This document shows, piece after piece, positions 330 to 23,136 of a stretch of 23,136 nt of DNA. How positions within the stretch are numbered: position 1 is the first letter of the stretch; each line of letters begins with the position of its first letter. Made by a program: the position numbers and the translations under genes. Source of the stretch: a virus. The stretch is from positions 1-23,136 of the IMG/VR virus record IMGVR_UViG_3300027759_000442; one strand, written 5' to 3'. The notes below the pieces were generated by a model that ran no database searches, was not told the DNA's origin, and saw only the letters and a list, made by a program, of their open reading frames with translations.

Positions 330-3300
330 ATGCTACAAATTAGAACCACGGTTGACGGAAAAAATATCTTTCTGGATTTATATCAAAATGAACCAGTATT
401 ACTTAATATGTCATTTGCTGAATTGCAAGACATAACAAAGAAGAATAGTAATTTTTCTCAAACCTTTACATTACCTGGTTCAAAAAAAAATAACATAGTC
501 TTTAATTTCTTTTATGAATTGAATGCAATACCAACAGACTTTAATCCAAACAATAAGTTTGAAGCAAGTTTGTTATGGGATGGTTATGAAATCATGCATG
601 GCAATATTAGATTAAATTCAGTGTCAGTTGAAAAAGGAGAGATAATTTATTCAGTATCTTTTTATAATCAAATTGGAGACTTAATGTCAAACATTGGTGA
701 TAAGTTTTTATTTGATTTAGATTTGAATTATTTAAATCATCCTTATTCACAAGATGTAATATTATATTCAAACCTTGACCCCAATTTATTTTCATTAACA
801 GGAACAACAGATTATTCATATCAGAACGGTAAGACGATGTGGGGATTATACAATATTGGTTATGAATATATTTCAGGTAATACTGTTAATTCAGGAACCA
901 CACCATTAGTTCAATTTACTCAAGCCAACGCAACCACATTACAATATACACCTCAAGCACCAAACTTTGATTTTACTGGAAGCCCAGTGCATGATTATTA
1001 TTTTAAACCTTCAATACAGATTAAAGAATTATATTCAGCGATAGTTAATGAGGCGGGATATGAAATAGAAAGTTCATTTTTTGATACATCTTATTTCAAA
1101 AGATTTTACATGCCACTAAAATTTGTTGATGAAAGTATTTATTCAAGAAATGCAATTGCGGCATGTTATACTTATAATAATGAAAATATTCCAGTTGATT
1201 ATGGATATAACACTTATACTAATCCTTCAAGCGGGATTACATGTAATAGTTTAGGATGGACAGCAACAACAAGTTCATTTAATATACCAGCAGAGTTTGC
1301 GGCGTCATATCAATTTAGATTTACGTTTACGGTAATACCAAGAGTGCAGTGCGACCCAGATGCAGGGATATTACCTTATTTATATTTCTTTTTTGCGGAT
1401 GGAACAACAACTGAAACATTATATCCAGGAACAAATTTTTGTGATACAACACCACAACCGGTTTCAATAGAGAGAACATTTAATATATCAGGGGATAGTC
1501 AATTAGAGTTTTATTTTCAAGGTGATTATATTGATATTAGTGGTTTTACATCACAGATAATTAATCCACCAAGATTTATTCCTAATGGTTCAATTATTAA
1601 TTATGATATTGAATTCCCACCAAATGATTATTCTCAAATTGATTTTATAACATCGGTCAATAAATATTTTAATTTAATTGTAGTTCCAAATCCCGACTAT
1701 CCGAAGAAATTAATTATTGAACCTATCGTAGATTATGTTGGAAGTGGGGTAGTATTAGATTGGACAACTAAGGTTGATGCCAATTCAATACAAAGTTTAT
1801 ATCCAACAAGTTCATTATTAAATGGAACACTACACTTTGAATTTAAGTTAGACCAAGATTACGCCAACCAAGATTTTAAAGGGCAAACTAATAGAATATT
1901 TGGAACAGATAAGTTTCAATTAAATTTAGATTATAAAGATACAATTACTAAATTTGATTTTTTATTTTCATCTCCAATTGATATTACAGTTTCAAACTCT
2001 TTTGTTCCATTGATTACATTATCTTCAATGTCAAAAGTTAAGACAATTGATAATGCGGGTAAATCATTACAAACATTTGTTCCATTTAAGATATTACCAA
2101 AAATGGTATTCAGAGGTTTAACATTACCAAATGATAACTATGGTTTTATTGCGGGGTCAGGAACAACCGCATCAACAACTTGCACATCAGGAATTACTTA
2201 TACAACAAATTTAGCGGGAAGACCATTATTTTATAATGACTGTAATGGAGTGCAACAAGTTTATTATGGAAGCACTGTTGGTTCGAATACATTACCAGGT
2301 TGTGCAAATCCGTATACCTTATATTATCCTTTAGTTTTATTTCCATATCCAACATTAACTATAACAAGTAATGGAACATCATGTAATACAGCACCACCAA
2401 GTCAATATCAGTATTGGTATATGAACCAATTACAACAAGATAGATGGACAAACATTAATAGATTTACAACATACCCATTCAACTATAATAACTTTTCACA
2501 CTACACAAACTTTAGAGGAGAAGATAAAACTAATATTACTCCATCTGAATTCACATTTATTAATGATGATTTGTATAACATATACTATCAAGATTATATT
2601 GATGATATAATTAGTGAAGAAAATAAAATCTATTCAACTAAGATTTATTTATATCCAAATGATATTCAGTCTTTAACTTGGAAAGAAAAAATTTTAATCA
2701 ACAATACTTATTTTAGAATTAATAAGATAACAAATTGGAATGCCTTAGAACCTGCGGTATGTGATATTGAATTAGTTAAGTTAACAAAAGATTATCAGTC
2801 TCATCCTATATTGTATTATGATTTAATACCTTGTAGTTCAGGAGCAACATTACATTCAAACTCTGATTTGAATTATAATCTATATGCCTACGCAGGAACT
2901 TATGTTAAATTATATGATGATGCATTAAGTTATCTTGGTTGTTATTCTGTTTCAATTGGAGAGTATGACCCATTAGATACTTATAATCATTATTATATTG
3001 GAAGTGGTTATACATCAACAAATGTCGGAGCATATCCTGATTGTGGTTGCACAGGAAGAACGCCATTTAATATAGTTCAAGAAGAACCAAACGAAGATAG
3101 AGTATTTTATTTTAGAGGGATAGAGTGTAATGGAAGTGATGAATATAATTTCACAGCAAATACAACATCATTAAATACCGCATTAATCTATAAAGTTAAA
3201 AATCCAACAACAGATATAACATATTGTATATCAGGAATATCAATTACAAGTGCATCATTAATTAATTATGACTTTGTTAATACTTATGCAAATTGTGTTG

Positions 3301-4100
3301 ATTGTAATTATGTTCCACCTACTCCAACACCAACACCAACAAACACATCTACACCAACTAATACCCCATCACCAACTCCAACAACACCTCCTGTAGACCA
3401 ATGTTTCTGTTATGATATTATAGTATCCGCAACAACATCAGAAGAAGGAGGATTTATTGCGAGCATTACTTATAATAATTGTTTTGGTGTATTAACAGGA
3501 AGAGCGTTTACAACGGGACCAGGAACATATAAACAATGTATTCAAAGAAGTGGTGGTGTAGTTCAATATTTTACTTCAGATGGTATTGATACAAGTTCAT
3601 TAATAGGAGTTGGAAATGGTAATTGTAATACAGGTTATGTCTGCACAGGATATGTTCCAGCAGGAATAACTCCAACCCCAACAATGACTAATACAATGAC
3701 ACCAACTCCAAGTGCAACAATTGGATTAACACCAACGGCAACACCAGTTCCATCGGCAACTCCAACACAAACACAAACTCCTACTGCAACAATTGGATTA
3801 ACTCCAACACCAACAGGAACACCAGCAATAACTCCTACTCCAACTGAAAGTCCAGCGGTTAGTTATACTTTTTATTTAGCGGATGAATATGAATGTTTAA
3901 ATCCAGGTTGTGCATTTGTTCAATCAAATGTATTAGTTGCATTACCAAGTTCAGTATCACCAAATTATGGTAATTTCTATCCAGCATTATATCCAAATGG
4001 TTATACTTATACATTAATAACAACAACGGTTGGGACTGGTGGATTATTATTAGATACAATAAATTTTAAATCATGTAATACAGCATGTTCTGTATTATAA
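330..4100 (+). CDS. Large tail/baseplate structural protein with Pro/Thr-linked C-terminal modules
   Basis: This 1256-residue protein starts at ATG 330, immediately after the upstream stop. Residues 1 to about 990 form a long beta-rich region. Its N-terminus (SFAELQDITKKNSNFSQTF, then SFYNQIGDLMSNIGDKFL) resembles baseplate or minor tail proteins of uncultured Bacteroidetes phages. Two Pro/Thr tracts follow (residues 996-1021 and 1114-1175), separating a Cys-containing module of about 90 residues and a Cys-containing C-terminal module of about 80 residues (ending CNTACSVL). The arrangement suggests a virion-anchored body with flexible stalks carrying small surface modules, possibly for host binding. 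No enzyme motif was seen. The same linker type recurs in the next gene and in the gene at 14372. Structural role is moderately sure; the exact position in the tail is not. Confidence 0.65.
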   Translation: MLQIRTTVDGKNIFLDLYQNEPVLLNMSFAELQDITKKNSNFSQTFTLPGSKKNNIVFNFFYELNAIPTDFNPNNKFEASLLWDGYEIMHGNIRLNSVSVEKGEIIYSVSFYNQIGDLMSNIGDKFLFDLDLNYLNHPYSQDVILYSNLDPNLFSLTGTTDYSYQNGKTMWGLYNIGYEYISGNTVNSGTTPLVQFTQANATTLQYTPQAPNFDFTGSPVHDYYFKPSIQIKELYSAIVNEAGYEIESSFFDTSYFKRFYMPLKFVDESIYSRNAIAACYTYNNENIPVDYGYNTYTNPSSGITCNSLGWTATTSSFNIPAEFAASYQFRFTFTVIPRVQCDPDAGILPYLYFFFADGTTTETLYPGTNFCDTTPQPVSIERTFNISGDSQLEFYFQGDYIDISGFTSQIINPPRFIPNGSIINYDIEFPPNDYSQIDFITSVNKYFNLIVVPNPDYPKKLIIEPIVDYVGSGVVLDWTTKVDANSIQSLYPTSSLLNGTLHFEFKLDQDYANQDFKGQTNRIFGTDKFQLNLDYKDTITKFDFLFSSPIDITVSNSFVPLITLSSMSKVKTIDNAGKSLQTFVPFKILPKMVFRGLTLPNDNYGFIAGSGTTASTTCTSGITYTTNLAGRPLFYNDCNGVQQVYYGSTVGSNTLPGCANPYTLYYPLVLFPYPTLTITSNGTSCNTAPPSQYQYWYMNQLQQDRWTNINRFTTYPFNYNNFSHYTNFRGEDKTNITPSEFTFINDDLYNIYYQDYIDDIISEENKIYSTKIYLYPNDIQSLTWKEKILINNTYFRINKITNWNALEPAVCDIELVKLTKDYQSHPILYYDLIPCSSGATLHSNSDLNYNLYAYAGTYVKLYDDALSYLGCYSVSIGEYDPLDTYNHYYIGSGYTSTNVGAYPDCGCTGRTPFNIVQEEPNEDRVFYFRGIECNGSDEYNFTANTTSLNTALIYKVKNPTTDITYCISGISITSASLINYDFVNTYANCVDCNYVPPTPTPTPTNTSTPTNTPSPTPTTPPVDQCFCYDIIVSATTSEEGGFIASITYNNCFGVLTGRAFTTGPGTYKQCIQRSGGVVQYFTSDGIDTSSLIGVGNGNCNTGYVCTGYVPAGITPTPTMTNTMTPTPSATIGLTPTATPVPSATPTQTQTPTATIGLTPTPTGTPAITPTPTESPAVSYTFYLADEYECLNPGCAFVQSNVLVALPSSVSPNYGNFYPALYPNGYTYTLITTTVGTGGLLLDTINFKSCNTACSVL
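3315..3392 (+). repeat. Pro/Thr-rich coding repeat (first tract of the large tail protein)
   Basis: Twenty-six codons, almost all Pro, Thr, Ser or Asn in alternating TP/TN order. The tract links the body of the large tail protein to a Cys-containing module. It likely forms an extended, unfolded stalk. Confidence 0.85.
3669..3854 (+). repeat. Pro/Thr-rich coding repeat (second tract of the large tail protein)
   Basis: Sixty-two codons dominated by Thr and Pro. The block ATIGLTPT occurs twice (near 3715 and 3787). It separates the two C-terminal Cys-containing modules of the large tail protein. Confidence 0.85.
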
Positions 4101-4118
4101 AAAAAGATATTTAATATT

Positions 4119-6653
4119 ATGAGTTGTAATTTTTATGTTCATCAAGACCCATCAGGTGGTGCAAAATATGTATCAGGAACAACATGTTCTGGCACCGAAG
4201 CATATTATTATTTAACTTATGGACAAAGTGTTTGTATGGATAATAATAAACCATTGGTTAATCTTAATGGATTAATTATTAGTGGTTCATGTTTACCAAT
4301 TACACCAACACCATCAACAACTCCACTTGAATATTGTTTTGTATCTGGATTAACTTATACAACCGTTCCTTATCAATGTCCAAATGATGGACTAATTTAT
4401 TATGATGTTTATGGTTCATTAAAAATAACAGCAACAATTGGAGGAAGAATTGAAGATACAAATCCGGCAATTCCAGTTAGTATTTCAAATGGTATTCAAA
4501 CACAAATTATAACAATTCCTCAAGGACAAACATTTACTGAATTTGTTTATCCAAAAGTTAATTTTAGATATACTGATACTGGTTGTATTTCAACAAATTA
4601 TCCTGATTGGTATATTATTGGTTCTCCATCAATAACTCAATGTTTATTCTTTACCCCAACTCCAACAACAACTCCAAGCCAAACACCAACACAAACCCCA
4701 ACTAATACCCAGACCCCAACCCAAACAAGTAGTGAAACACCAACTCCTACTCAGACCCCAACTAATACTGGAACACCAACTCAAACGCCAACTAATACTG
4801 AAACATCTACTCCAACACAAACGCAAACACAAACACAGACACAAACGCAAACACAAACACAGACACAAACTCCTACAAATACTAATACACAGACGCCAAC
4901 TAATACACAAACGCCTACTAACACACAAACACAAACTCCTACAGCAACATCAAATCCTATTTGTCCAGAACAAATAATTGTATCAAATTCAAATCCGGTT
5001 TATTCTGGAGCAGTTGGAACTTATACAAGAACTTACACTTATTCAGGAGGCTCATTTAATTATGGATACTTCTCAGCAAATACAGGTGGTGCAACATTTA
5101 TGACTGGTCTTGATGGAACAGGTAATGGAGCAATTGTATATCAATATTATAACTCAATATTGAACCAATATTGGCAATTAGTTGGATTTAGTAATCCTAC
5201 TCCAAATCAAATAATAAACTTTGATTTATTTGATACTGTTGGTGGATTTTTAAGTATGGGTTATCAACCATTATTACCATTAGGAACAGGAACATTAGAC
5301 ATAATGGGAGTTATAAATAATGGTGGTGTTTTATATCCACAAAAAGGACAAACAGCATTTAATAATTTTTATATTTCATATCCTGCAAGTTGTCCAACTC
5401 CTACTCCTACACAAACCCCAACTCAAACACAAACTCCTACTAATACTACAACTCAAACCAATACACCAAGTCCAACACCACCACCAAGTGGAGCAACTGA
5501 AGCATACGCATATCTTAATGCTGTTGTTAGTGCAGGAGGACTTATAACTCCAACAATAAGTGCTTGCACAATAACATTATTCCAACAATTATTTACTAAT
5601 GGTCTTTGGAATAAAATACAAGCATTCTATCCATTCTTAGGCCGCAATGTTGCAGGTGCTAAATTTAATGGTAAAAATCCTGTTGATAGTGATGCAGCAT
5701 ATAGATTACAATTTAATGGAGGGTGGAGTTTTGGAGTATTTGGGGCAACATCAAATGGAACAAATGCTTATGCCGATACATTCTTGTCAGCAACCACTAT
5801 TGGTTCATTAAATAATCACATGGGTGTTTATATGCAAAATGCTACTTATCCAACAAGTAGAACTTATATTGGAACGGCCTATCCAAGCACTTATGGTTCT
5901 TATTTTTCTTTAGGATATGATAGTTTTGGTAAATTTGTTTATGGTGCAAAATCATACGGTATTACTACTTCATCAGCAGCAACAATACCAAATGGATTTA
6001 ATTTAATAACAGGAACTCAAGCACCAAATTTACAAAAACATTTTTATAATGGAGTTTTAAAATATACTGCATCATTAACAAATGTTGATAATATTACTTC
6101 TTCAATTACTATTGCAGCATTAAATAATAATGGGACTATTCAACAATATTATGCAAACAATTATTACTTTGCAACAATTGGTTCTGGTTTAACTGATACT
6201 GAAGCAATTAATTATACAAATATTGTTAATACATATTTGGCATGTATTGGAAGAAATACTTATCCTGCAATTACTCAAACCCCAACACCAACACCTGGAT
6301 TAAGTCCTACCCCTACTCCTACACCATCTTATGTAGCACCAACACCATCACCAACTAAAACTCAAACCCCTACACCAAATCCAACAACAACACCAACCTC
6401 AACTCCGGCTGGACCAACATATTATTATTATGAAATGCATCAATTTGCAACATCAGCTTGTCTTAGTTATACAACAACTAATGTTAGAAGCACATCTTTA
6501 TTATCAACAGGTATATCTGCATTTTATTGTAATACAAGCACAGGTGTAAAATATAGATTATTTCAAACTATTGCGCCTGGTTCTTATTCAATTATTAATA
6601 CAAGTGCTTGGCTAGGACCATATTCAAGTTGTTCATCAATGCCATGCCCTTAA
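4119..6653 (+). CDS. Multi-module Pro/Thr-linked adhesin with a lectin-like domain
   Basis: This 844-residue protein starts at ATG 4119, 18 bases after the previous stop. It reads as beads on a string: a Cys-containing N-terminal module (about 1-60), a beta module (70-178), a Pro/Thr/Gln tract (179-278), a second beta module (280-425), a short tract (426-457), a ConA/LamG-like sandwich (about 460-718), another tract (719-763) and a Cys-containing end module (767-844). The lectin-like call rests on the pattern of the module, which ends GLTDTEAINYTNIVNTYL, as seen in many Bacteroidetes phage tail proteins. No signal peptide is visible, as expected for a virion protein. Likely role: tail fibre or receptor-binding protein. 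Nothing enzymatic is visible. Adhesin role is likely; the receptor is unknown. Confidence 0.65.
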   Translation: MSCNFYVHQDPSGGAKYVSGTTCSGTEAYYYLTYGQSVCMDNNKPLVNLNGLIISGSCLPITPTPSTTPLEYCFVSGLTYTTVPYQCPNDGLIYYDVYGSLKITATIGGRIEDTNPAIPVSISNGIQTQIITIPQGQTFTEFVYPKVNFRYTDTGCISTNYPDWYIIGSPSITQCLFFTPTPTTTPSQTPTQTPTNTQTPTQTSSETPTPTQTPTNTGTPTQTPTNTETSTPTQTQTQTQTQTQTQTQTQTPTNTNTQTPTNTQTPTNTQTQTPTATSNPICPEQIIVSNSNPVYSGAVGTYTRTYTYSGGSFNYGYFSANTGGATFMTGLDGTGNGAIVYQYYNSILNQYWQLVGFSNPTPNQIINFDLFDTVGGFLSMGYQPLLPLGTGTLDIMGVINNGGVLYPQKGQTAFNNFYISYPASCPTPTPTQTPTQTQTPTNTTTQTNTPSPTPPPSGATEAYAYLNAVVSAGGLITPTISACTITLFQQLFTNGLWNKIQAFYPFLGRNVAGAKFNGKNPVDSDAAYRLQFNGGWSFGVFGATSNGTNAYADTFLSATTIGSLNNHMGVYMQNATYPTSRTYIGTAYPSTYGSYFSLGYDSFGKFVYGAKSYGITTSSAATIPNGFNLITGTQAPNLQKHFYNGVLKYTASLTNVDNITSSITIAALNNNGTIQQYYANNYYFATIGSGLTDTEAINYTNIVNTYLACIGRNTYPAITQTPTPTPGLSPTPTPTPSYVAPTPSPTKTQTPTPNPTTTPTSTPAGPTYYYYEMHQFATSACLSYTTTNVRSTSLLSTGISAFYCNTSTGVKYRLFQTIAPGSYSIINTSAWLGPYSSCSSMPCP
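4653..4952 (+). repeat. Pro/Thr/Gln-rich coding repeat with a long QT run
   Basis: One hundred codons built from TP, TN and TQ dipeptides, including a run of alternating Gln-Thr. At DNA level it is a degenerate 6-base repeat (ACN CAR) with a perfect longer-period duplication inside it. It links two folded modules of the adhesin. Confidence 0.9.
4815..4870 (+). repeat. Perfect 24-bp tandem duplication plus partial third copy
   Basis: Bases 4815-4838 and 4839-4862 are identical 24-mers, beginning ACACAAACGC and ending ACACAG. The next 8 bases (4863-4870) start a third copy. Each copy encodes four Thr-Gln dipeptides. Identity at synonymous positions points to recent duplication by slippage or unequal recombination. 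Confidence 0.9.
5394..5489 (+). repeat. Pro/Thr-rich coding repeat (third linker of the adhesin)
   Basis: Thirty-two codons of mostly Thr, Pro, Gln and Asn, ending in a Pro triplet. It lies directly before the ConA/LamG-like module. Confidence 0.85.
6273..6407 (+). repeat. Pro/Thr-rich coding repeat (last linker of the adhesin)
   Basis: Forty-five codons, Thr and Pro rich, between the ConA/LamG-like module and the Cys-containing C-terminal module. Confidence 0.85.
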
Positions 6654-14326: not shown

Positions 14327-14366
14327 ACATGGGAGGGTATACATTACTCTCCTGTGTTTTATTTTT
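14327..14366 (+). terminator. Rho-independent terminator after the tail tube-like gene
   Basis: ACATGGGAG (14327-14335) pairs with CTCCTGTGT (14349-14357) as a 9-bp stem with two G-T pairs, followed by TTTTATTTTT. The hairpin lies between the tube-like gene and the adhesin ATG at 14372. Confidence 0.7.
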
Positions 14367-14371
14367 ATATC

Positions 14372-16270
14372 ATGATATTAATAAAGACTAACCAGGAAAA
14401 TACAATTGTAATAACAGTATCACAAAATGCTGAATTACCAAATCCACAATGGTTATTTTCATTTACTCATATCTTTTCAAAAAGAACAGTTAGATTTGTT
14501 TTACCAAATGTGTCAACACATAAAAGTAGATATGATGAATTTGTTTTTGTTGAAGGACAAGGTGCTAATGAAATTGCTTTTCCATTTGAAGGTCAATATA
14601 TTTATAATGTCTATGAACAAGTTGCACAAATTCCTGAAAATCTTAATCCAGCCTTAGCATATAATGTTGTTGAAACTGGTATTGCTACCGTAATTGCAAT
14701 GTCTTCATCTACAACAAATGATTATTATGAAGAATTTATTTCTCCAAATGAATTTAATGCAAACTATATTTTTGCTCCTAATGAATTAAATCCTCCAACA
14801 CAAACTCCTACTGAGACTGCAACCAATACTCCAACTCCATCAATAACACCAACAAACACACCTACAGCCTCCATTACGCCATCCAATACAGCAACCCCTA
14901 CAGAAACACCAGTGATTAGTCCAAGTCCAACCACAACATCTACAATCACTCCTACACCAAGTATTACTGCATCACATACTCCAACCAAAACACCAACACA
15001 AACTCCGACTAATACAAAGACTTCAACGCCTACGCCTACTAATACAAAAACACAAACTCCTACACCAACCACAACAACAACTTTGACGGCTACGCCAACT
15101 CAAACTGCATCTAATACTCCTACCCCAACTCAAACTAAAACCCCTACCCAAACTCCTACTAATACTAAAACTCCTACTCAAACGCCAACTCCAAGTATTA
15201 CTGCATCACAAACTCAAACTCCTAGCCCTACAACAACTTTAACGGCTACACCAACTCAAACACAAACATCTACAAATACTCCTACGCCAAGTATTACTGC
15301 CTCACAAACAATGACGCCTACTCCAAGTATTACGGCAAGCCAAACACAAACTCCTACTAATACTCCTACCCCTACTCAAACCCCTACAAATACTATAACT
15401 CAAACACAAACGCCAACTAACACAGCAAGTCAAACTCAAACCCCTACACCAAGTATTACAGCAAGTCAAACAATGACACCTACTAATACTAATACTCAAA
15501 CAGGAAGTCCTACACCAACTCCTACTGCAACACCATTTAGTCCAGCATCACTTAGTCCAGTTATTTGGGTGGATTTCTCAGATACCGCAACAATGACATT
15601 TAGGGCAGGAACAAATTTCTTAGAAAAAATAACAAATAAAGGAGTTTATGGTGGATTAACAGCATTTACTCAAACTAATGCTGCGGACCAACCAGCAATT
15701 TCATCTTGGACCGGTTCTTCAAGTGTTGTAATATCAGCAACAACAGTTTCTAATGATTGGGTAAATTCAAATATATCAACAACAGGTTCTTCAAATTGGA
15801 CAAGAATAGTTGTTGTTAGTGAAAAAAGCGGCGGTTTCCAACCATATAGATGGTCATTTAATTCAGGAGCCTCTTCAGTATCAACATATAATAATAATGG
15901 TGGAAATTATTTTAAATCTCTTTTTAATGGTTCTAGTTTTTTATATTTCAGAAGAGATTGTGCATTAACAAATAGACCAAATAGTGGTCAAACAATAATT
16001 GATTACATTTCAACATCTGCAGCAACGCCAATAAGTTATTCTGAATGTAATACAAGTGCATTTACAGAAACAACAACAGCAGGTTCAAATGGAGCAACAG
16101 TTCAAAACTTTCCTTCTGCAGGAACACTTTCTTTAATAAATGAAACAGGCACAACTACGGCATTAACTGGTCAAATTGGAGAAGTAATTTTATTTACAAG
16201 AGAATTAACCTCAACTGAAAAAACAAATATTAATAATTATTTAAAAAATAAATGGGGATTAAAATATTAA
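14372..16270 (+). CDS. Pro/Thr-stalked adhesin with C-terminal LamG/ConA-like domain
   Basis: ATG 14372 was chosen over an in-frame GTG at 14354, because the GTG lies inside the terminator stem. The 632-residue product has three parts. Residues 1 to about 135 are a compact virion-anchor domain (MILIKTNQENTIVITVSQNA; LPNVSTHKSRYDEFVFVEGQ), a type seen in Bacteroidetes phage structural proteins. Residues about 141-388 are a 248-residue Pro/Thr/Gln/Asn/Ser stalk. Residues about 392-632 are a LamG/ConA-like lectin sandwich beginning LSPVIWVDFSDTATMTF and ending ELTSTEKTNINNYLKNKWGL, a hallmark end of such modules. Likely a fibre or head/neck decoration that holds a sugar-binding domain away from the particle. 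The ligand cannot be read from the sequence. Confidence 0.7.
   Translation: MILIKTNQENTIVITVSQNAELPNPQWLFSFTHIFSKRTVRFVLPNVSTHKSRYDEFVFVEGQGANEIAFPFEGQYIYNVYEQVAQIPENLNPALAYNVVETGIATVIAMSSSTTNDYYEEFISPNEFNANYIFAPNELNPPTQTPTETATNTPTPSITPTNTPTASITPSNTATPTETPVISPSPTTTSTITPTPSITASHTPTKTPTQTPTNTKTSTPTPTNTKTQTPTPTTTTTLTATPTQTASNTPTPTQTKTPTQTPTNTKTPTQTPTPSITASQTQTPSPTTTLTATPTQTQTSTNTPTPSITASQTMTPTPSITASQTQTPTNTPTPTQTPTNTITQTQTPTNTASQTQTPTPSITASQTMTPTNTNTQTGSPTPTPTATPFSPASLSPVIWVDFSDTATMTFRAGTNFLEKITNKGVYGGLTAFTQTNAADQPAISSWTGSSSVVISATTVSNDWVNSNISTTGSSNWTRIVVVSEKSGGFQPYRWSFNSGASSVSTYNNNGGNYFKSLFNGSSFLYFRRDCALTNRPNSGQTIIDYISTSAATPISYSECNTSAFTETTTAGSNGATVQNFPSAGTLSLINETGTTTALTGQIGEVILFTRELTSTEKTNINNYLKNKWGLKY
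14792..15535 (+). repeat. Long Pro/Thr-rich coding repeat (248-codon stalk)
   Basis: All 248 codons belong to a low-complexity TP/TN/TQ/TS tract. It has a higher-order period: the block PSITAS occurs five times, at 14957-14974, 15191-15208, 15287-15304, 15323-15340 and 15449-15466, the first two identical at DNA level. Another block (TLTATPTQT) occurs twice. Asp is absent and the only charged residues are a few Lys, His and Glu. Confidence 0.9.
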
Positions 16271-20173: not shown

Positions 20174-20191
20174 AAGATTTATTTTTATTTG

Positions 20192-20232
20192 TTTGTTTAA
20201 ACAAAGATACGTAAATGTTTTTAATTAAAAAA
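20192..20232 (-). promoter_or_regulatory. Promoter with perfect 14-bp palindrome
   Basis: TATCTTTG lies at 20209-20202 on the - strand, merged with the perfect palindrome TTTGTTTAAACAAA (20192-20205). A T run lies 19 bases upstream in place of the usual -33 TTTG. It drives the gene starting at 20173. Confidence 0.7.
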
Positions 20233-20500: not shown

Positions 20501-20943
20501 GATGCTTTTGCTATTATTATTGATTGTAATTCTTGTTCAGTCATCGTTGGTATAATTTTCCATTTATTAGTTATACTTGATTTACCCTTTAAAGATATTA
20601 TTGTATGACTAATAAGTCTTTTATCAAGACTACTAGTATAAAGGTCAAAACGAATACCTTCAATTTTAACTAAAAAGAAATCAATATTGTCATGCACAAT
20701 TTTATCAACAATATATCTATCATTAGTTTTAAAAGGACATAACATTGCTGCTATATCACGTTGGTTATCACGAATTTCTTGACGTATATTATAATATTCG
20801 TTTTCAACATTACCTTTAAATTGTTGAAAGGTTTGTATCATACTATTATAATTTTCAACACGACTTTTATAATCTACTTCAGCTAATTTAAGTCTTTCAA
20901 TTTCTTGTTGTAGTTGTTCTACGGTTTTTATTTGATTTTCCAT
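20494..20943 (-). CDS. Coiled-coil protein of unknown function
   Basis: ATG 20943 was chosen; an in-frame TTG at 20961 lies inside the -7 box and cannot be transcribed as a start. The 149-residue product opens MENQIKTVEQLQQEIERLKL; residues 1 to about 65 are a Gln/Glu-rich coiled coil, followed by a smaller beta-containing region (DRYIVDKIVHDNIDFFLVKI) and a helical end. No catalytic motif was recognised. First gene of a two-gene unit behind its own promoter. Confidence 0.65.
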   Translation of the reverse strand: MENQIKTVEQLQQEIERLKLAEVDYKSRVENYNSMIQTFQQFKGNVENEYYNIRQEIRDNQRDIAAMLCPFKTNDRYIVDKIVHDNIDFFLVKIEGIRFDLYTSSLDKRLISHTIISLKGKSSITNKWKIIPTMTEQELQSIIIAKASC

Positions 20944-20948
20944 TTTGA

Positions 20949-20993
20949 TTTGTTTTAACAAAGATACGTAATACTTTTTTAATTAAAAAATAA
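20949..20993 (-). promoter_or_regulatory. Promoter with near-palindromic operator-like site
   Basis: The - strand has TATCTTTG at 20966-20959, 16 bases above ATG 20943. The box is merged with TTTGTTTTAACAAA (20949-20962 on the + strand), a 6+6 inverted repeat with a 2-base centre. It overlaps the 3' end of the upstream gene. Confidence 0.7.
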
Positions 20994-22037: not shown

Positions 22038-22211
22038 TTAATTAGTTTTATATTTTTTTTTAATTTCTTCAACATGTTCTTTTAAATAAGATTTAGGAAA
22101 TTTTCTTTCTTTACCATTTTTTAAAAGTAGAATTACTTCATTTCCACATGTAATAGTGCTATCTGCAGAATTTAGATATCTTTGGAATGTTTTTAAACTT
22201 AATTTTTTCAT
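22038..22211 (-). CDS. Small basic protein of unknown function, first gene of the operon
   Basis: ATG 22211 was chosen because an in-frame TTG at 22229 lies in the -7 box. The 57-residue product (MKKLSLKTFQRYLNSADSTI...) is Lys-rich, especially at its end (YLKEHVEEIKKKYKTN), with a short beta hairpin in the middle. It could bind nucleic acid, but no family was recognised. Four further genes follow it closely down to 20979. Confidence 0.55.
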   Translation of the reverse strand: MKKLSLKTFQRYLNSADSTITCGNEVILLLKNGKERKFPKSYLKEHVEEIKKKYKTN

Positions 22212-22216
22212 TTTGA

Positions 22217-22255
22217 TTTGTTTTAACAAAGGTATGTAATTATTTTGATAATAAT
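22217..22255 (-). promoter_or_regulatory. Promoter of the five-gene leftward operon, with near-palindrome
   Basis: The - strand carries TACCTTTG at 22234-22227, 16 bases above ATG 22211. The box is merged with TTTGTTTTAACAAA (22217-22230), the same site as at 20949 and 22651. No clear -33 box. Confidence 0.65.
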
Positions 22256-22624: not shown

Positions 22625-22650
22625 TTTGTTTGTTTTGATTTTCATATTCA

Positions 22651-22689
22651 TTTGTTTTAACAAAGATACGTAATAGTAATGATACCAAA
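22651..22689 (-). promoter_or_regulatory. Best-matching Bacteroidetes promoter with near-palindrome
   Basis: The - strand shows TTTG at 22689-22686, a 17-base spacer, and TATCTTTG at 22668-22661. This fits the flavobacterial pattern TTG-N17-23-TAnnTTTG. The box merges with TTTGTTTTAACAAA (22651-22664). It is the most upstream promoter of the leftward block. Confidence 0.75.
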
Positions 22690-23136
22690 AAATCTTTTTT
22701 AAAGTATTTTCATATATTCTTTTATCCTATATGTATAGGAGGTTCTATATCCAAAGAAAACTCACTCTTCTTCAAATACTCAATTACTTTATAAATCAAT
22801 TCGTAATATCAGTGCCCTACCGTATATCCCCATATCCAAAGGGAGTATCAATCTAATTACTAGTTTCTTTGTCGGATGTTGTTAACCTCTTAAACATTCA
22901 TCCACTTTTGTTGATACTATATTTTCTTTTATTGGAACCTCTCAGGATTTTATTCCTTACTTAAACAATAAAAGTTTAATACTTAGAACTTTAAACTTTC
23001 ATTTAACCTATCATTGATATAAGTTGGGGAGTGAAACGCTGTTAAGACCCCATATACAATAAATACCTGGAAAAGAAGAAAAGTTAAATAGTTTAAAAAA
23101 AAAACTTTGGAAATTTTACTTTTTTAATATTTTATC
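22690..23136. other. Gene-free, repeat-rich region; possible structured RNA or control region
   Basis: No frame here is long enough or start-appropriate for a credible gene. Inverted repeats are dense: TCCTATATGTATAGGA palindrome (22725-22740); GAGGTTC (22739-22745) with GAACCTC (22935-22941); TCCC (22827-22830) with GGGA (22841-22844); GTATCAA (22845-22851) with TTGATAC (22911-22917), enclosing GTCGGATG (22871-22878) with CATCCAC (22899-22905); AGGA-TCCT (22944-22957); AAAGTTTAA (22971-22979) with TTAAACTTT (22991-22999); TATCATTGATA (23009-23019); TGGGG (23025-23029) with CCCCA (23048-23052). Some pairings exclude each other. G/C-rich clusters stand out from the A/T flanks. From 23080 on there is only A/T-rich sequence with a ten-base A run. 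Confidence 0.5.
22725..22740. repeat. Perfect 16-bp palindrome
   Basis: TCCTATATGTATAGGA: arms of 7 bases around a TG centre. It lies about 55 bases upstream of the first leftward promoter's -7 box, so it could be an operator or part of the structured region. Confidence 0.6.

Follow-up and report, generated by a model that had tools for sequence, protein, structure and literature searches.

Comparative evidence for a structured, pseudoknotted RNA at a divergent operon junction of uncultured tailed phages

The locus and its phage

The window analysed here is a whole viral record of 23,136 bases (IMGVR_UViG_3300027759_000442) from a tailed phage. Its portal protein matches PHROG portal families, and its nearest named relatives are the Nonlabens phages P12024S/L (29% identity). 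Three large proteins of the structural module (330-4100, 4119-6653, and 14354-16270) carry long Thr-Pro-rich repeats (TPTPTQTPT). The right edge of the record holds the feature under study, a structured RNA gene on the minus strand (22725-23053) that we label RNA-A. A near-identical contig (L078/L005) extends beyond it and provides the right-hand context: leftward small genes form an operon to the left of RNA-A, a rightward operon (p66-p98-thyA) starts to its right, and RNA-A is the sole long gene-free stretch at this divergent junction. Leftward genes are preceded by four copies of a promoter-like repeat reading TGTTTTAACAAAGATACGTAAT, or TATCTTTG on the minus strand (20186-20214, 20938-20973, 22206-22240, and 22640-22675). 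The last copy, on the minus strand, is the promoter-like unit of the leftward operon; it lies downstream of RNA-A and is separate from it.

The original prediction, made from the sequence of the window, described this stretch as gene-free and rich in G/C clusters. The first point holds across the family, since stops occur in all six frames of 13/13 homologues, which have no reading frame in common, and no conserved protein frame runs through them. The second is true only in a modest form: the G+C content is 24-37% per 100 bp, versus 15-34% in the preceding 2 kb.

A Pfam search of the neighbouring genes, made for one carrier (L122), identified a thymidylate synthase, a DUF6378 protein (the p98 homologue), a weak MazG match, and a Terminase_3-type large subunit (Terminase_3 and Terminase_3C) adjacent to a DUF5681 protein. 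Three phages encode a protein of roughly 163 aa (L122:3320-3811, L132:367-858, and L010:14183-14674) whose C-terminus looks like a helix-turn-helix and which is possibly a phage sigma factor; its Pfam helix-turn-helix matches are all below threshold. Another carrier record (G034, the L137 record, 29,593 bp) extends from a gene for the large terminase subunit to one for a protein resembling the small subunit. We looked by eye at ORFs of 150 aa or longer elsewhere in that record and at the ORFs listed around RNA-A, and none resembled a polymerase, primase, or helicase. Together with the position of RNA-A in the sole long gene-free stretch, this would fit an RNA for replication or packaging (a primer, an origin transcript, or a packaging RNA) in a small phage that borrows the replication of its host. 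We regard this as improbable: the terminase large subunit and DUF5681 protein are ordinary, not those of a phi29-type system, many relatives lack RNA-A, and the only skew break between 18000 and 23136 is the change in gene strand.

Homologues and distribution

We gathered homologues by successive protein, DNA-pattern, and profile searches, using nhmmer locally. These iterations resulted in 13 distinct RNA-A sequences with 55-94% identity to the window, all from tailed Bacteroidota phages that are uncultured and have one gene set in common; the carriers examined have the portal and PT-rich structural proteins common to this group of phages. Between the window and L008, 329 bases are 93% identical and either flank is about 70% identical, with the neighbouring proteins at 54-87% identity. 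Three homologues (L134, L136, and L137) were retrieved by a 5' motif alone and later matched the whole of a profile built without them (E 4e-67 to 9e-74; 4e-67 for L134 and 3e-71 for L137). As a negative control, chance matches to the pattern (L124-L126, L133, and L135) gave no significant match to the RNA-A model, R1.

The distribution is patchy, with R1 matching 3/40 records that hold relatives. Blastn searches with four homologues against phage records, and with one against plasmids, gave only two short chance matches. A first DNA pattern found no loci in genome contigs. A second found 9 loci that match the searched motif only, for which R1 gave no confirmation. Locus L144 is an ORF reading like ribosomal protein L36. 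R1 had no match in the 397 genomes scanned, all from one family of bacteria around a Flavobacterium, under stricter filters that could lose weak matches.

Covariation and fold

The final model, built on alignment A4 of the 13 homologues, describes an RNA of about 320-330 nt with 61 base pairs in 11 helices, including a long-range helix, a 7-bp pseudoknot, and a kissing loop between P2 and P7. In the alignment, 97.0% of the paired cells can pair, versus 81.2% after shuffling and 37-44% when partners are slid by 1-3 columns. Two-sided compensatory changes occur in 33/61 pairs (136 cells versus 42.6 in shuffles). The covariation score is 0.506, versus 0.198 in shuffles (0/500 reach the observed value) and 0.06-0.08 with slid partners, a control that flatters those pairs that were picked from the alignment on which they were scored. 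The better measure is thus the count on the tree, which places 61 compensatory events in 32 pairs, versus 2.6 on average and at most 11 across 100 controls with re-dealt 3' columns. Compensatory changes among homologues therefore exceed both the shuffled and the phylogenetic controls. Judged from this comparison of sequences, RNA-A is a structured RNA whose fold has been kept through several dozen matched base changes in relatives.

Folding energies would not have revealed it. The region differs little from shuffled sequences, with z-scores of -1.9 on the plus strand and -0.9 on the minus strand, which the covariation identifies as the true one. The excess of structure over chance thus comes from the comparison of homologues and not from thermodynamics, and single-sequence folding alone would miss RNA-A.

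All the helices that follow are given on the minus strand. The RNA begins with hairpin P1 (23026-23051; 23048-23051 with 23026-23029), whose outer pair varies between GC, AU, and GU and whose loop contains a conserved UCUUAA. P1 covaries and corresponds to a G4/C4 stem of the original prediction; the TATA/TATA extension once drawn onto it is present in the window, but it is not conserved and clashes with the next hairpin, P2 (23005-23025; 23020-23025 with 23005-23010). All P2 pairs are standard in the 10/10 sequences listed, in a register set by hand. The long-range helix P3 (22814-22989; 22985-22989 with 22814-22818 and 22979-22983 with 22821-22825) closes the central domain, with 99.2% of cells paired and two-sided changes in 5 pairs. 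A 9-bp hairpin noted earlier at 22971-22999 exists in the window, but it is lost in homologues and clashes with the covarying P3.

Within the central domain lie the nested repeats of the original prediction, both of which covary strongly. The outer one (22845-22851/22911-22917) is P4 (22844-22918; 22911-22918 with 22844-22851), with 98.9% of cells paired and two-sided changes in 6/7 pairs. The inner one (22871-22878/22899-22905) is P5 (22873-22904; 22899-22904 with 22873-22878), where 100% of cells are paired and 3/6 pairs show two-sided changes. It is continued by P5b (22893-22896 with 22880-22883; 100% paired), and, of the compensatory events on the tree, 12 fall in P5 and 4 in P5b. Hairpin P6 (22828-22843; 22840-22843 with 22828-22831) has 97.9% of cells paired and a conserved GGAUAU loop. 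Towards the 3' end, hairpin P7 (22783-22807; 22803-22807 with 22783-22787) is 100% paired with two-sided changes in 4/5 pairs, and P9 (22734-22749) is the weakest helix (94% of cells paired, one-sided changes only). We observed that the window RNA has two copies of the motif UUUGGAUAU, one in the loop of P6 (about 22832-22841) and one where PK1 meets P9 (about 22746-22756; both on the minus strand), and that GGAUAU is nearly invariant at both places.

Two tertiary contacts emerged from an unbiased scan over all column pairs. The pseudoknot PK1 (22752-22871; 22865-22871 with 22752-22758) has 7/7 pairs in 13/13 sequences and comes in three forms (CAAAGAA/UUCUUUG, CAAGGAA/UUCCUUG, and CAAUCAA/UUGAUUG). 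It replaced a helix P8, dropped with only 63% of its cells paired. The kissing loop PK2 joins the loops of P7 (22797-22800) and P2 (23013-23016), in the forms CAAC/GUUG and CAAU/AUUG, and AUCAC/GUGAU in L132 once an alignment gap is allowed for. A candidate pairing between the P1 and P5 loops was good in L129 and L092 and failed in other homologues. The tertiary contacts, like the choice of strand below, are new relative to the original prediction.

The crossing of P3 by PK1 recalls that of P3 and P7 in group I introns and, with the many invariant unpaired bases, brings to mind a ribozyme or a group I-like relic. The topology differs: in group I introns the 5' strand of P7 lies outside the P4-P6 domain, whereas the 5' strand of PK1 lies inside P4, and on this ground we rejected a group I core. 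There is also neither a host gene nor a splice junction, and even lax filters gave no match to an Rfam intron or ribozyme model. A ribozyme or relic is therefore very unlikely.

Strand and transcription

Helices P1-P7 contain 39 G-U cells and 2 A-C cells, which places the RNA on the minus strand. The same asymmetry bears on the possibility that the locus is a DNA element, i.e., inverted repeats that serve as binding sites or repeats that arose by chance in AT-rich sequence. Folding of single sequences near chance would agree with such an element, but the compensatory changes across 61 pairs and the tolerance of G-U on one strand only do not. We rejected a pure DNA element on this strand asymmetry and give it practically no weight. 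A bare DNA origin likewise fails to explain RNA-A, because the covariation is RNA-specific in strand. Where the original prediction had left the choice between an RNA of either strand, an origin, and a control region, the structured RNA stands and is now assigned to the minus strand.

A promoter-like box, TATTTAT (23059-23065, minus strand), precedes the first G of P1 by 7 nt, and the predicted start of RNA-A is at about 23052. A TATTTA lies within 20 nt of P1 in 6/8 independent homologues (shuffles have a mean of 0.63 and a maximum of 4 in 2,000); in the remaining 2/8 the box is further upstream, ahead of an extra 5' hairpin. No intrinsic terminator follows RNA-A, which leaves its 3' end uncertain. 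A small hairpin RNA-like unit lies immediately upstream of RNA-A in L092 (424-540), and likewise in L131 and L137. It has arms ACCACACC/GGTGTGGT and a terminator-like hairpin (GGAGAAC/GTTCTCC) with a run of T after it.

Modularity of the RNA-A unit

The genes found 3' of RNA-A vary among phages (m56, p66, and several others), and in L122 (240-682) the whole unit, including its promoter flank, has been turned round at its site, so that its orientation to both flanking operons is reversed. At the edges of the unit in the window we noted short AT-rich inverted repeats (about 22692-22712 and 23080-23105).

These observations bear on whether RNA-A is a cis-acting operon leader, which would act on the RNA polymerase making its transcript, or on the ribosome reading it, by put-like antitermination or in the manner of a riboswitch. 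The absence of a terminator makes such a role possible, as do the same-strand ORFs that start within about 20 nt of RNA-A in L092 and L132. RNA-A also starts directly past the promoter box, and a co-directional ORF lies closely 3' of it in L130 and L129 too. However, a cis leader should keep its downstream gene, and we found instead genes from several unrelated small families and, in L122, a unit flipped towards a different operon. In the window and in L137, a new promoter lies between RNA-A and the next gene. Two tertiary interactions in a leader this long would also be unusual. Overall, a leader seems unlikely, although less so than a role in replication or packaging. The differing downstream genes and the inversion in L122 make a self-contained, probably trans-acting RNA the best reading. 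The modularity is no proof of action in trans, because any unit placed at such a junction will face one operon or another.

Other elements in intergenic gaps

Sister phages carry another conserved element between genes, RNA-B, of about 300 nt (L010:12764-13060, plus strand; L085:170-425, minus strand; L105, about 413-620; L106; and L119), with 69% identity between L010 and L085. In L010, it has the p66 homologue on one side and genes of opposite direction on the other, and it points away from p66, like RNA-A. Both arms of its 5' hairpin change together. RNA-B has no Rfam match, blastn gave no link between it and RNA-A among ORF-free gaps, and R1 does not match it. A further group of gaps of 330-450 bp, gap cluster C (L017, L020, L021, L031, L016, L035, L065, and others), was considered as a third large RNA and rejected, since its alignment shows a conserved leader with promoter and terminator hairpin, then a short unlisted ORF (MGQTKRLLEDILEE...).

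A model for RNA-A

Structure, strand, conservation, and modularity come from comparison, to which the model adds action in trans. We consider it probable that RNA-A is a self-contained phage non-coding RNA with its own promoter and a pseudoknotted fold, acting in trans. It would be transcribed from the minus strand off a promoter at about 23060 and fold into a 5' hairpin, P1, followed by P2 docked on P7 through the kissing loop; P3 would close the central domain of P4, P5, and P6, and PK1 would tie this centre to the 3' end. During infection it may act as a stable RNA or as an RNA-protein particle. Its invariant unpaired patches (UCUUAA, GAAAG, and GGAUAU) would most likely bind a host or phage protein or RNA, by which the phage could redirect or block a host machine. 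A bolder and much less probable version is that RNA-A represents an RNA machine of a new class, either catalytic or able to self-assemble in the manner of ROOL and GOLLD, by which a clade of small Bacteroidota phages controls its host. The differently built RNA-B would then occupy the same slot in sister phages, the clade swapping RNA modules for a single job.

Few large RNAs combine pseudoknots with tertiary contacts, and the role of those found in phages is seldom known. RNA-A is carried by small phages that only metagenomes have revealed, and the most nearly complete of their records has no obvious replication enzyme by eye. The family offers an explicit model of 61 pairs, a marked strand, a predicted start, and paired mutations that can be tested directly, and would be a new, tractable system for learning how phages use large RNAs. 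It also illustrates how comparison can reveal RNAs missed by energy-based folding in AT-rich phage genomes.

Comparison with known RNAs

No family of Rfam 15 (including ROOL, GOLLD, OLE, HEARO, RNase P, tmRNA, group I and II introns, and 6S) matches RNA-A at its gathering threshold. The best matches, for the window, L129, and L132 under lax filters, are far below it (E 0.36-10), and full Rfam scans gave nothing relevant. ARAGORN found 0 tRNA or tmRNA genes in the window. These results agree with the original prediction, which had matched the region to no group I or II intron, tmRNA, RNase P, or tRNA. We found no earlier description of RNA-A in the open-access literature.

Among known systems, the put and EAR antitermination leaders would likewise sit after a promoter and before an operon, but they are much smaller, and the RNA-A unit is invertible and lies ahead of unrelated genes. 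The pRNA of phi29 is also an RNA gene of a small phage; it differs in size from RNA-A, and instead of a phi29-type packaging ATPase the RNA-A phages carry a Terminase_3-type terminase (L122). OLE is a bacterial RNA. Like RNA-A it is elaborate and conserved (PMC12286853), and RNA-A has no Rfam match to it.

ROOL and GOLLD are large, pseudoknotted, non-coding RNAs of phages and prophages that were found by comparative analysis and have no described function (PMC12286853). They differ from RNA-A in sequence and fold, and neither Rfam model matches it; GOLLD members are often longer than 800 nt (PMC12286853), compared with about 330 nt for RNA-A. Both frequently lie near tRNA islands, whereas the window has no tRNA. 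RNA-A is nevertheless also phage-encoded, pseudoknotted, non-coding, and found by comparison, and, as a member of neither family, it would by analogy work most like these two orphan phage RNAs.
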